Of a DNA stretch of 64,000 nt, positions 38,498-43,015 are shown piece by piece. The notes beneath the pieces were generated by a model. The model was given only the letters and a program-made list of their open reading frames with translations. It did no database searches and was not told the DNA's origin. Positions within the stretch are counted from its first letter, which is position 1. Every line of letters starts with the position of its first letter. This DNA comes from Lonsdalea populi (GTDB lineage: Bacteria > Pseudomonadota > Gammaproteobacteria > Enterobacterales > Enterobacteriaceae), in NCBI RefSeq assembly GCF_015999465.1, contig NZ_CP065534.1, forward strand, positions 2,604,001 through 2,668,000, written 5' to 3'. Both the position numbers and the translations under genes were made by a program.

Positions 38498-38716
38498 AAC
38501 AGCCCCCTTTGACTGTGTACTTTGACACTTTCAGCGTAGCTCTGTTTTTCGCTCAGATAAATGGCGGCATAACACTTTTGTGAGATGAGAGGGGATTAAT
38601 GATACGACGAAAATATATCTAATATACATGCAGTTATACTGTTATAGTTTGCTTGTCGATCAAAACCCGTTAAGCTTCCTGCGTTTTCGAGCACTTACGT
38701 TTACGAGCACCGCGCT

Positions 38717-39079
38717 ATGTCTTCCCATCAAGACTTATTTCTCCGCCTTTCGCGCTCCACTTTTCGCCAGCGGTTTCATCTCGGCCCCAAGGAACGTGAT
38801 TATTGCTACAGCAAAGGTAAAGCCGTGGTCGCTTCACATGCCGCCGACTTTATCGCGCAACGGCTGGCGCCGGCGACGCCGCACAATGACGGCAAACAGA
38901 CGCCGATGCGCGGACATCCGGTCTTCATCGCCCAGCATGCTACGGCGACCTGCTGTCGGGGATGTCTGTCAAAATGGCACGGCATCACCAAACAACGGCC
39001 GCTAACGCCGGAGGAGCAACGCTATATCGTCGAGGTGATTTTGCAGTGGATTGAGCTGGATTTAGCGGCGGTAGCTTAA
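38717..39079 (+). CDS. DUF4186-family protein
   Basis: A 120-residue soluble protein of unknown function. FRQRFHLGPKERDY near the start and the block HPVFIAQHATATCCRGCLSKWHGI are the conserved core as I recall it for DUF4186. His and Cys residues there (H, H, C, C, C, H) suggest a metal site (inference). The Shine-Dalgarno is weak. It is a single gene between the usp gene and the glycosidase module. Confidence 0.78.
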   Translation: MSSHQDLFLRLSRSTFRQRFHLGPKERDYCYSKGKAVVASHAADFIAQRLAPATPHNDGKQTPMRGHPVFIAQHATATCCRGCLSKWHGITKQRPLTPEEQRYIVEVILQWIELDLAAVA

Positions 39080-39181
39080 ATAAGGACCAGGGAAATGAAT
39101 GGCGGGTAGCGATTAATCGCGCTCGCCGATCGCTAAGCGCTGCCGTCTCTGTAGGAGCAACAGCGTCAAACACCCTCTAGA

Positions 39182-39210
39182 GGTCCGCTTCACGAAAGGG
39201 GAAGCGGACC
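39182..39210. terminator. Strong hairpin between convergent genes
   Basis: GGTCCGCTTC/GAAGCGGACC, a perfect 10-bp stem with a 9-base loop, lies between the DUF4186 gene and the glycosidase gene. No T run follows on either strand, so it may act as a weak bidirectional terminator or an mRNA end stabiliser. Confidence 0.5.
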
Positions 39211-39220
39211 GTATGGGCAA

Positions 39221-40615
39221 TCACATACTGACGATGTTGACCTGTGCATCTCCTGCCGAAGAGAAGGTCACAAACGTGCAGGACTCACCCGAACTGAAAA
39301 ACAGCTCAATGACGCCGTAATCAATAAACATGTTCATCCACATGATATCTTTGCTCAGCGTAAAGGTATGCGGTTTTTCAAATTCGACAATTCCCACTGC
39401 TTTCCTCGACCGACGAAGGATGTTGCATTCGCGTATCGCAGGGGTATAGGTCACGACAAAATTCCAGTCAGTACCGCCGACCTCAATTTTGATCTCGCTG
39501 GCGGTACTGCTCTGAAAGTCAAAGCCGATGTAGCCCCGGCCATCAATGACCAATGGCAGCGCGGTATCTCCACTATCGAGAGTTTCAGTGATTTCTGAAA
39601 CAATCTCATCCGAGAATGAAAATACGGGTTTATTTTCAATGTAGTATTCATCGTTCACATAGCGTAGTTTGAGTTTACGCATGAGAGACGCAATGCCGAT
39701 GTTGCTGGATTTGTCGATGATGGGCTGGGCCTCTTTATCCTGCCAGTAGCCCCAGTTCGAAGCCCATCCCAGGCAATACAACCGGTCATGACTTATGGTC
39801 TCATCATACCCAGCGCGCGCGCCGTAGAAATCTGGCCCATTGTCGATCACCACCGGCGCAGGCGTTTCAATATTACCGAACACCATCGTGTCGTAGTCCA
39901 ACGTCCCGACGTGTATAAACGTCCCCGTCGTCCCTAATGTTCCGCCGTTAGCACCGAACACCAGCACGGACTTGTTATATCCCAGATCGCCGCAGCGAAT
40001 ATCCAGCAACGTAGGACACTCGATCAACCCCATGTCTTTGATGATGACACTGTCGACATAGGTAAACGGTGCTTTACCCGTGCGGGAACGGTAAATGCCG
40101 ATCTTGTCGCCTTCGGCGAGATAGATATATACCCAACCATTCTGGATAAACGCGAAAGGGTCGCGGTAATTATCCAACCGGAGATTGTTAGGTTGTACGG
40201 GATTAGACTCGCAGGGTGAAAAAGTATAGCCCTTATCGTCGGAGTACCACAGATTCGTGGTCTGCAATCCATCGATATAGCTGGTGACATAGGCTAGCCA
40301 GGCACCCTCGCCATAACCCACAAGGTTACCCTGATCGATGACCACCGACCCCGTAGCGATATCACCCTGCGGCGTTTTATATTTCGGGATGGCTACCCCG
40401 TGATCTTCGAATTTGACCCAGTCAGACGTCGTGAAATGACGCCATTCTGTGCCATTTCCTCCCCACACATAGTCTCCATTCCAAAGGTAATATCCATGCC
40501 ACAGGGCGTTATCGCTGTCGTAAATGAATGTCTGAATGTCATTCATGAAGCCCGGTTCTTTACTGGATAGATGAAAACCGTTGCTGAAAACACGTTGCTC
40601 AATGACTTCGGACAT
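39221..40615 (-). CDS. Glycoside hydrolase family 32 protein (fructan/sucrose-type)
   Basis: A five-bladed beta-propeller glycosidase of 464 residues with a C-terminal beta-sandwich from about 320. All three GH32 catalytic motifs are present: the nucleophile D26 in FMND, the stabiliser in YRDP (D152) and the acid/base E199 in IECP. DFYGARAG (262-269) and LGWASNW (282-288) fit the family. The first motif departs from the usual WMNDPNG (here FMNDIQT), so the subsite preference may differ. No signal peptide is seen, so the protein should be cytosolic and act on an imported or phosphorylated fructoside; no transporter or PTS gene is adjacent. A good GAGAGGGG site precedes ATG 40615. It is divergent from a phage-type repressor gene, which probably controls it. 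Confidence 0.88.
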   Translation of the reverse strand: MSEVIEQRVFSNGFHLSSKEPGFMNDIQTFIYDSDNALWHGYYLWNGDYVWGGNGTEWRHFTTSDWVKFEDHGVAIPKYKTPQGDIATGSVVIDQGNLVGYGEGAWLAYVTSYIDGLQTTNLWYSDDKGYTFSPCESNPVQPNNLRLDNYRDPFAFIQNGWVYIYLAEGDKIGIYRSRTGKAPFTYVDSVIIKDMGLIECPTLLDIRCGDLGYNKSVLVFGANGGTLGTTGTFIHVGTLDYDTMVFGNIETPAPVVIDNGPDFYGARAGYDETISHDRLYCLGWASNWGYWQDKEAQPIIDKSSNIGIASLMRKLKLRYVNDEYYIENKPVFSFSDEIVSEITETLDSGDTALPLVIDGRGYIGFDFQSSTASEIKIEVGGTDWNFVVTYTPAIRECNILRRSRKAVGIVEFEKPHTFTLSKDIMWMNMFIDYGVIELFFSSGESCTFVTFSSAGDAQVNIVSM

Positions 40616-40850
40616 AGTGAAACCCCTCTCGTTGACTCATAACCCACCTTCGGCATACACGGGCGAAGACTTTTTCTAATGATCCCAGCGTGTCCGATTT
40701 GTTTAACTCGCTGCGTCGGACGCCGCAGTTTCCTGACAGTAAGGCGCGAAAAGCAGCAAATCCGCCCCCTGTCATCTTGGGCATACGCGGCCAATCACGC
40801 TGTAACGAATTGGCAGCGTTGATTGTTAGTACGTTGATAAAAGTTGTCAT
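40599..40850 (-). CDS. Small hypothetical protein upstream of the GH32 gene
   Basis: An 83-codon ORF whose ATG at 40850 has GGAG five bases upstream, a better start signal than most spurious ORFs. It is basic (about 12 Arg/Lys), with no signal peptide, no membrane segment and no recognised family. Its last 17 bases overlap the start of the GH32 gene, and the GH32 ribosome site lies inside it, so it could be translated first and couple to the enzyme. It may equally be a leader with no protein function, or a remnant. Confidence 0.35.
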   Translation of the reverse strand: MTTFINVLTINAANSLQRDWPRMPKMTGGGFAAFRALLSGNCGVRRSELNKSDTLGSLEKVFARVCRRWVMSQREGFHYVRSH

Positions 40851-40874
40851 ATTGGCTCCATGTTGGTTGATGAC

Positions 40875-40945
40875 AACTTAAAGTTACAATTCTCCGCCAG
40901 AATTACAAGTATTAATTTAAATGCTAATTTAAATATAAACTTGTA
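40875..40945. promoter_or_regulatory. Cluster of inverted repeats, probable operator of the S24 repressor
   Basis: Between the small ORF and the repressor gene lie AACTT-A-AAGTT (40875-40885), AATTCT-N5-AGAATT (40888-40904) and TACAAGT...ACTTGTA (40904-40910 with 40939-40945, perfect arms 28 bases apart). The last pair encloses a direct repeat of TAATTTAAAT. Such clustered palindromes in a divergent promoter are typical of phage-like repressors. Confidence 0.6.
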
Positions 40946-40956
40946 GCATTAAAGAT

Positions 40957-41682
40957 ATGAACGGAAAAAACCGCCTCACTACGGCATCGCGCATCGCGCA
41001 ATTACTCACAGAGAAGGACTGGAATCAGTCTATTCTGGCCCGCAAACTGACGATTTCACCTCAGGCTGTACAAGGCTGGGTGTCAGGTAGAACGACGCCG
41101 CGCGGCTCTCACCTGCAAAAGCTGTCCCAGGTCAGCGGCTATCCGGAACACTGGTTTTTCATGCCCCGGGAAGACGACAAAGACACCGTGATTAGTCCCA
41201 ATATGTCTCCGGCGGCACCGCTGCCCGTGAAGCGCCCGGAGTGCCAACGTTATCGCGTGGATATGCTCGCCGTTCAGGTCAGCGCGGGGAATGGCATCGT
41301 GTCATCATCCGAGTTTGTTGAAACCGTCAAAGCCATTGAATACACCCATGAGCAGGCACGGATGCTGTTTGGCGGCAAACCCGCCAGCGCCATTAAAATG
41401 GTGACGGTTAAAGGTGACAGCATGGCGTCTACCATCGAACCGGGGGATATGATCTTTGTCGATGTATCCGTCAATACTTTCGATGGAGATGGGATCTATG
41501 TGTTTGTCTTCGGCAATATGCTGTATGTCAAACGGCTGCAAATGCTGAAACATCGGCTGCTGGTTCTTTCCGACAACCCTAAATATCAGTCCTGGCACAT
41601 CGAAGATGGGGAGCAGGAAGAACTCCATATCATTGCGAAAGTGCTGCTCAGTCAGTCAGTTAACTTCAAACGTTTCGGTTAA
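40957..41682 (+). CDS. Phage-type XRE/S24 (LexA-like) repressor
   Basis: A 241-residue transcriptional repressor with a self-cleavage domain. The N-terminal helix-turn-helix (about 10-60) reads NQSILARKLTISPQAVQGW. The C-terminal S24 peptidase domain has the nucleophile S155 in KGDSM and the base K192 in LYVKRL. An Ala110-Gly111 pair in VSAGNG is the expected cleavage site, so RecA-stimulated inactivation is plausible. It closely resembles lambda-type prophage CI repressors but stands alone, without integrase, Cro or phage structural genes nearby. It is divergent from the small ORF and GH32 gene, with palindromes between. The Shine-Dalgarno is weak. Confidence 0.9.
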   Translation: MNGKNRLTTASRIAQLLTEKDWNQSILARKLTISPQAVQGWVSGRTTPRGSHLQKLSQVSGYPEHWFFMPREDDKDTVISPNMSPAAPLPVKRPECQRYRVDMLAVQVSAGNGIVSSSEFVETVKAIEYTHEQARMLFGGKPASAIKMVTVKGDSMASTIEPGDMIFVDVSVNTFDGDGIYVFVFGNMLYVKRLQMLKHRLLVLSDNPKYQSWHIEDGEQEELHIIAKVLLSQSVNFKRFG

Positions 41683-42033
41683 GCCACACAGTAGAAGTTG
41701 CAGACCGTCTGACAAAATAGTTGCTTTAATCGCTCGCCGCATAGGCATAACCTAAAACCCTAGACATTTCGCCCTGACGTCCTTAATCCGAAAGAATCCT
41801 GCCAATAAAACACCGGGAATGAAGCGTGTTCCAGCGTCACGTTGCTCGAGAAAAAACGGGCGTACTGATGACGGCAAAAATTTTAACGGTAGTACAGCGA
41901 GGATGTGCAGGCTCATGCTAAACAGCACAGCGCAATGACATGATATAAAAGAAAAACAATGCTAGGGGGATGTTCGCGCGTAGGATAACGCAAAGGAAAA
42001 AGGGGCTGCTATTAAGCAACCCCTTGAAATGTA
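41683..42033. other. Intergenic region between the repressor and tRNA-Ser
   Basis: A 351-base stretch with no ORF and no integrase remnant recognised. It contains the tRNA terminator at its right end. No second copy of the tRNA 3' end (possible attL/attR) was noticed in it. Confidence 0.5.
41997..42027 (-). terminator. Terminator of the tRNA-Ser gene
   Basis: AAGGGGCTGCT/AGCAACCCCTT stem (one mismatch) around an ATTA loop; on the minus strand it ends in TTTTTCC. It lies just downstream of the tRNA 3' end. Confidence 0.8.
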
Positions 42034-42121
42034 TGGCGGAGGAGTAGAGATTCGAACTCTAGAACGGTTTCCCGTCGCCGGTTTTCAAGACCGGTGCCTT
42101 CAACCACTCGGCCACTCCTCC
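42034..42121 (-). tRNA. serT: tRNA-Ser (anticodon UGA)
   Basis: An 88-nt class II tRNA. The acceptor arms are GGAGGAG (5') and CTCCTCC (3'), ending in an encoded GCCA. The anticodon loop CTTGAAA gives UGA, the T-arm loop is TTCGAAT, and the long variable arm of tRNA-Ser is present. It lies 5' to and divergent from yccA, as serT does in E. coli. Confidence 0.97.
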
Positions 42122-42355
42122 GCAACGAGGCGAACTATAAACAGAGCGCCCGATATTGTAAAGCGACAACCGGTTCGATTGCCTTAAAAATAGGCTGATA
42201 GAGATTAAATGGGTGCAAAATCATCATTTAGCTCACGCCTTCTTCTGTCTGCGCCGGTGAAAACAAGTAAAGAAGGGTAAAACACCTTTAATCACACAGC
42301 GTGACTACCTAATCTAGGCATGAAATAAAGACCCCTTAAAGAGAGAGTCGCCACT

Positions 42356-43015
42356 ATGGATCGCATTGTTACCTCAACATCACGTGAACAATCGCTGCTG
42401 AGCACCCATAAAGTCCTGCGCAATACCTATTTTCTTCTGTCACTGACATTGGGATTTTCCGCCGTCACCGCAACGCTCAGCACCGTCTTCAAACTACCCG
42501 CCCCCGGCCTATTGCTGATGGTGGCGGGATTCTATGGCCTGATGTTCTTAACCTACAAACTGGCGAACAGCCCAGCGGGGATACTGGCTGTTTTCGCGCT
42601 GACCGGCTTTATGGGATATACCCTTGGTCCGATGCTGAGCACGCTCATCGCGTCCGGCGCGGGCGACATCATCATGCTGGCCTTGGGCGGCACCGCGCTG
42701 GTGTTCTTCTGCTGTTCCGCATACGTACTGACCACGCGTAAAGATATGTCTTTCCTGTCCGGAATGATGATCACCGGTTTTGTCGTGCTGCTGGTCGCCA
42801 CCATCGCCAACTTGTTCCTGCACATTCCCGCGTTGCAGATGGCGATTAGCGTTATGTTTATTCTGTTCTCCGCCGGCGCCATTTTGTGGGAAACCAGTAA
42901 CATCATTCACGGTGGCGAAACCAACTACGTTCGCGCCACCGTCAGCCTGTACGTTTCCATCTACAACGTATTCGTCAGCCTGTTGAGCTTGCTGGGTATG
43001 AGTCGCAGCAACTAG
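42356..43015 (+). CDS. yccA: FtsH-modulating inner-membrane protein YccA (Bax inhibitor-1 family)
   Basis: An inner-membrane protein of 219 residues, the same length as in E. coli, with about seven membrane segments. In E. coli it is a substrate and modulator of the FtsH protease and protects SecY when translocons jam. The N-terminus [25 protein letters not shown] (cytosolic tail for FtsH in E. coli; continuous) is conserved. It is preceded by serT and followed by a strong terminator. Confidence 0.96.

Follow-up and report, generated by a model that had tools for sequence, protein, structure and literature searches.

A phage-type S24 repressor gene facing a probable endo-levanase gene in Lonsdalea populi: a candidate for SOS-released breakdown of levan

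Background

Why would a bacterium keep the gene for a sugar-cleaving enzyme opposite that of a phage-type repressor? The question is raised by a 64,000-nucleotide stretch of the single-contig genome (3,859,707 bases) of the tree-infecting bacterium Lonsdalea populi (NZ_CP065534.1, positions 2,604,001 to 2,668,000; hereafter the window), in which a gene for a glycoside hydrolase family 32 (GH32) protein lies head to head with one for a repressor of the XRE/S24 type. Both open reading frames (ORFs) and their order had been described in an earlier note on this DNA and were recovered in the present analysis (Table 1). On balance we favour the view that the two genes form a co-opted phage-repressor unit whose cargo, an endo-levanase, would be released through RecA and the SOS response and would act on levan outside the cell.

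Results

The two genes lie head to head in all five Lonsdalea genomes compared. Both are under purifying selection, the ratio of nonsynonymous to synonymous substitution rates (dN/dS) over ten genome pairs each being 0.046-0.083 for the GH32 gene and 0.066-0.192 for the repressor gene, and the GH32 protein is 95% and 87% identical to homologues on contigs of L. britannica and L. quercina. The pair also occurs in one genome of another genus (G729), again in head-to-head order (with identities of 51-52% and 55%) but at an unrelated locus, with 121 bp between the starts, adjoining hipBA and about 2.5 kb from a tRNA-Gly gene. There the enzyme gene directly follows the gap, which holds a dyad with perfect 13-bp arms whose sequence is unlike that of the Lonsdalea dyad described below. 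The earlier note would have given up its proposal had the pair turned up in no other genome, and it does turn up, in the four other Lonsdalea genomes and in G729. It is thus kept together at two unrelated addresses, where its presumed operator differs along with the repressor. With its presence at another place in another genus it resembles a compact transferable unit more than it does junk.

G729 is the sole carrier found beyond Lonsdalea in the sample of genomes searched. It came to light through a nine-row profile alone. Of the 392 family genomes searched with this profile, 16 had a GH32 match at 1e-25, namely the five Lonsdalea genomes, G729 (3.8e-138) and ten far weaker ones (5.6e-26 to 5.9e-35), the neighbouring genes being compared for Lonsdalea and G729; two of the ten were inspected and both carry NDPNG. 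Searches with the single protein returned two matches among 198 family genomes, both in Lonsdalea, and one among 369 class genomes at 1e-15, which was the genome itself, and a scan of genome contigs gave two loci, both again Lonsdalea. Viral contigs yielded nothing with the single protein, and six and two loci in profile scans (the two being contigs already found), with no further pair among them. In E. coli 13 of 5426 genomes matched, and ten places among the matches listed cover repressor-like sequence only; 132 plasmid records, all below 60% identity, held no further pair either. At the level of the phylum 12 of 398 genomes matched, the Lonsdalea populi genome itself among them. Eight of the phylum loci (L115-L122) entered the 29-sequence tree below, one (L128, genome G1016) was read gene by gene and L129-L132 were left out. 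The G1016 region holds what by eye is a leader-bearing GH32 gene beside a levansucrase-like gene, and no repressor was seen in it.

Within Lonsdalea, the GH32 gene of G002 is nearest those of G003 and G004 (synonymous divergence, dS, 0.18-0.38), but its repressor gene is nearest that of G001 (dS 0.30), which hints that recombination has taken place between the GH32 and repressor genes. Between the two groups of genomes the dS of the GH32 gene (0.95-1.25) exceeds that of the flanking genes DUF4186 (0.45-0.66) and yccA (0.34-0.40; usable pairs only, leaving out the four of ten with G004, in which the alignment is shifted by one codon).

The repressor has Peptidase_S24 (2.9e-22) and HTH_3 (1e-7) domains by Pfam and is 47-50% identical to the CI proteins of HK75 and HK022. 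It retains Ala110-Gly111, Ser155 and Lys192, so that every residue on which the earlier note had based its call of an intact repressor with an Ala-Gly cleavage site could be located in the sequence. A GH32 gene is an unusual partner on the divergent side of a CI gene. As a control, eighteen further CI loci that the family search had returned were examined, their ORFs being read with open ends and both GH32 proteins being run against them by tblastn: none has a GH32 match on that side, and ten of their divergent ORFs, when scanned, all match models of the HTH or YdaS type, eight above the curated cut-off. At one of these loci (L026) an ORF 942 bp off resembles a phage lysozyme by eye, and to say that no hydrolase at all occurs beside other CI genes would therefore be wrong. 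No cro-like HTH gene was found on the divergent side in Lonsdalea; what stands there is a short ORF without a match in Pfam, PHROG or NCBIfam.

The GH32 protein matches Glyco_hydro_32N in Pfam (E = 1.6e-36) and 'levanase' in PHROG (1.2e-37), and among proteins of solved structure the endolevanase LevB1 is closest to it in sequence (9h8i; 2.1e-46 by phmmer). Its catalytic residues are in place (nucleophile D26, R151-D152-P153 and E199 as acid/base). The first motif, FMNDIQT, is present as the earlier note had it, but it is neither damaged nor defective: MNDIQ recurs in both Bacillus-phage endo-levanases compared (33-35% identity) and in the viral contigs L083-L086, while the motif reads MSDIQ in L087, INDVQ in L088 and NDPQ in LevB1 as well as in two plasmid enzymes. 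In two trees, one of 18 and one of 29 sequences from a small and mostly viral sample, the Lonsdalea enzyme adjoins the levanases of L083-L085 (support 0.999-1.000) and falls with the endo-levanases, apart from the NDPNG enzymes. A structure model (mean pLDDT 76, nine sequences) searched with Foldseek confirmed the GH32 fold and left the substrate unspecified. Levan is the likely substrate in view of the motif shared with endo-levanases of phages and of the catalytic triad of residues, and we consider the protein a probable endo-levanase.

An ordinary intracellular hydrolase of sucrose or fructan oligosaccharides that has come under an odd regulator would suit a protein in which no signal peptide could be seen by eye and which matches the scrB family of NCBIfam weakly (46.8 bits, where the cut-off is 356.4). 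Given MNDIQ and a place in the trees with endo-levanases rather than NDPNG enzymes, and with no transporter or kinase gene seen adjoining it among the local ORFs scanned with Pfam, we regard this as very unlikely. The cytosolic enzyme of the earlier note stands as far as the signal peptide goes, whereas the intracellular use of a glycan gives way to action on levan outside the cell as the more likely reading. All five Lonsdalea genomes carry a gene of the levansucrase family GH68 (490-500 bits, cut-off 27), which makes levan plausible in Lonsdalea; the passages that a literature search brought up concern the levan of Erwinia amylovora, with no mention in them of levan in Lonsdalea.

Several viral levanases appear to be parts of phage tails. 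The GH32 domain of L083-L085, the nearest group in the trees, lies behind an N-terminal part that by eye resembles a phage tail protein (in L083 Pfam finds GH32 only), whereas the Lonsdalea enzyme stands alone. Two such frames on viral contigs were noted. In L088 (4521-6524) a levanase domain follows a Mu Gp48-like N-terminal part (4.6e-5, under the cut-off), possibly a tail-borne levanase of a proteobacterial-looking phage, and in L084 (6759-9446) an 895-aa frame runs by eye from collagen-like GPQG repeats into a levanase domain, its product being a likely tail fibre.

The gap between the two genes has the same length in all five Lonsdalea genomes. Where the earlier note had seen clustered palindromes filling the shared promoter, we find one dyad of 19+4+19 with nested TTTAAAT repeats, which covers 40% of the gap rather than all of it. 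It has three mismatches in 19 pairs and none of 300 shuffles was as good. At the same position in the other four Lonsdalea genomes it is less perfect, with three to five mismatches, and shuffles as good numbered 0, 0, 5, 1 and 14 of 300 in G000 to G004, five dyads that come from related genomes and are hence not independent. The spaced half-sites have one exact occurrence in the genome; at up to two mismatches the pattern gives four matches per strand against ten in a reversed control, and no regulon can thus be drawn.

It might be argued that the repressor is real but answers to a trigger other than the SOS response (a phage anti-repressor, another stress or none), or that it mainly confers immunity to related phages with the enzyme riding along. 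Its membership in the CI family would agree with this, as would the presumed operators, which differ between Lonsdalea and G729 as immunity specificities do. CI proteins with intact residues also differ widely in the ease with which they are cleaved. The same type of enzyme at the same place in two genera, on the other hand, suggests that the enzyme matters, and we judge such an explanation unlikely.

The small overlapping ORF of the earlier note, which extends over the GH32 start, is an open frame of 79-83 aa in all five Lonsdalea genomes. Its start, frame and stop were kept in all four other copies in none of 4000 neutral simulations, and in 0.9% with both ends fixed, a setting that ran below the observed divergence. 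Its dN/dS is 0.31-1.17 and it is absent from the second genus; it may serve as a translational-coupling leader.

The identity of the repressor to CI of HK75 and HK022, together with the grouping of the GH32 protein with tail-type levanases, makes a phage source of both genes likely. In all four relatives read upstream, at most about 2.1 kb separates a tRNA-Ser(tga) gene from yccA, and G015, one of the four, has a Phage_integrase gene whose end is 69 bp from the 3' end of this tRNA gene. In the window itself no second copy of the tRNA-Ser 3' end was found with three mismatches allowed, nor was an att repeat found in 38500-42400, and by eye a terminator-like hairpin stands between the tRNA-Ser and the repressor gene, so that insertion into this tRNA gene is not established. 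Both genes could be the last two of a lost temperate phage at the tRNA-Ser site, with no present role. The relatedness of the CI protein, the company that the GH32 protein keeps among phage levanases and the integrase gene of G015 (one of the four relatives) all speak for such a remnant. Strong purifying selection on both genes, the recurrence of the pair in a second genus at an unrelated locus, and the lack of an att repeat and of any phage gene beside the pair in the window speak against it and render it improbable. Of the cargo left by a temperate phage that the earlier note had envisaged, we would keep the phage ancestry as likely, and the purifying selection argues against a mere leftover.

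On one side the pair is flanked by DUF4186 and universal stress protein genes, on the other by tRNA-Ser(tga) and yccA. In agreement with the earlier note, no transporter or phage gene was seen among the adjoining ORFs by Pfam; the pair apart, the ORFs scanned in 38.0-43.0 kb contain no phage family, and the region does not qualify as a prophage. In five other genera of the family that have both genes (G005, G006, G008, G013 and G015), DUF4186 and yccA are far apart or on separate contigs, which places the GH32-repressor pair at a rearrangement junction in Lonsdalea.

Table 1. Features of the GH32-repressor locus (positions in the window)
Feature	Position	Strand	Length	Basis or remark
Leaderless GH32 gene, probable endo-levanase	39221-40615	-	464 aa	Pfam, PHROG, LevB1, catalytic residues
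Short ORF overlapping the GH32 start, between promoter and GH32	40599-40850	-	83 aa	
Shared divergent promoter region	40851-40956	none	106 bp	
Interrupted dyad, presumed repressor operator	40904-40945	none	42 bp	predicted from sequence
CI-type XRE/S24 repressor gene	40957-41682	+	241 aa	
tRNA-Ser(tga)	42034-42121	-		context only
DUF4186 gene	38717-39079			
yccA	42356-43015			

Discussion

The reading that we favour is that of a self-contained regulatory unit built from phage-derived genes. The CI-type S24 repressor would repress both itself and the divergent endo-levanase gene by way of the dyad in the gap. Upon DNA damage RecA would trigger its cleavage at Ala110-Gly111, the promoter would open and the leaderless endo-levanase would accumulate, to reach levan either through lysis of the damaged cell or by a route of export that needs no signal peptide. 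Resident prophages, of which seven have been predicted in this genome (PMC7914447), may respond to the same signal and so bring about lysis. The levan, made by the cell's own GH68 enzyme or by neighbours, would be cut and the matrix loosened, presumably to some benefit.

Several points weigh against this proposal. Three conserved residues are no proof of cleavage driven by RecA. The dyad is unlike the three 15-bp operators of HK75, sites of that kind were not found by eye, and a promoter scan gave no clear promoter. The unit contains no Cro-like or lysis gene, and the second genus is represented by a single genome. As to the enzyme, its C-terminal model (the GH32C beta-sandwich) falls just short of the cut-off (19.8 against 21.9 bits), and Foldseek ranks LevB1 26th, after invertases and levan fructotransferases, and does not separate levanases.

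Among known systems the CI-cro regions of HK75 and HK022 share the S24 residues and divergent transcription from an operator region, but HK75 has cro and three 15-bp operators where Lonsdalea has a leader ORF, the enzyme and one long dyad. RdgA, too, resembles phage repressors; the rdgA/rdgB control of the pectin lyase of Erwinia carotovora differs by acting through a second gene, rdgB. The closest tested design is FddR of Francisella (PMC13148647). This S24 repressor of the phage type governs its own expression and that of one divergent gene, is induced by ciprofloxacin and binds a palindrome. As far as the passages from that source go, both systems combine an S24 repressor carrying cleavage residues with one divergent gene conserved beside it and a palindromic site between the two, and both are genus-wide and recur in other surroundings. 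They differ in their cargo, which for FddR is either dinB or a gene without a known function and in Lonsdalea a polysaccharide-cutting enzyme, and in that binding and the ciprofloxacin response were measured for FddR, whereas the Lonsdalea unit is known from its sequence and likened by design.

For the enzyme itself the nearest comparison is LevP of Bacillus phage phiNIT1, an endo-levanase that is not a tail spike and whose companion PghP is released by burst (PMC6966330). LevP belongs to the same GH32 group (31-33% identity to the Lonsdalea enzyme), but it is encoded by a lytic phage, with no facing repressor in the passages of that source, whereas the Lonsdalea gene is chromosomal. That the Lonsdalea enzyme has no leader would be understandable if it left the cell by lysis. 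More tentatively, one may imagine a matrix release at death, in which damaged cells fill with endo-levanase via the RecA-sensitive switch and lysis by co-induced prophages or tailocins dissolves the levan and frees kin or phages. Should this bolder version be true, a phage-style depolymerase strategy would have become a trait of bacteria, passed from genus to genus in the form of two genes.

Related ideas are already in print, and the new part of our proposal is the polysaccharide-cutting cargo, an endo-levanase, under an S24 unit; a combination of S24 repressor and levanase was not found in the open-licence literature searched. If the proposal is true, a captured phage repressor connects DNA damage with the degradation of biofilm polysaccharide, and does so in bacteria that possess a gene for making the polysaccharide being cut. 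It would then widen the known range of self-contained S24 units, which includes DNA repair, to the remodelling of the matrix and offer a compact, testable case of phage genes turned into a host trait. As a separate observation, a Pseudalkalibacillus plasmid (L098, 311-3437) has a GH68 gene directly 5' of a GH32 gene with NDPQ, a pair that would both make and cut levan.
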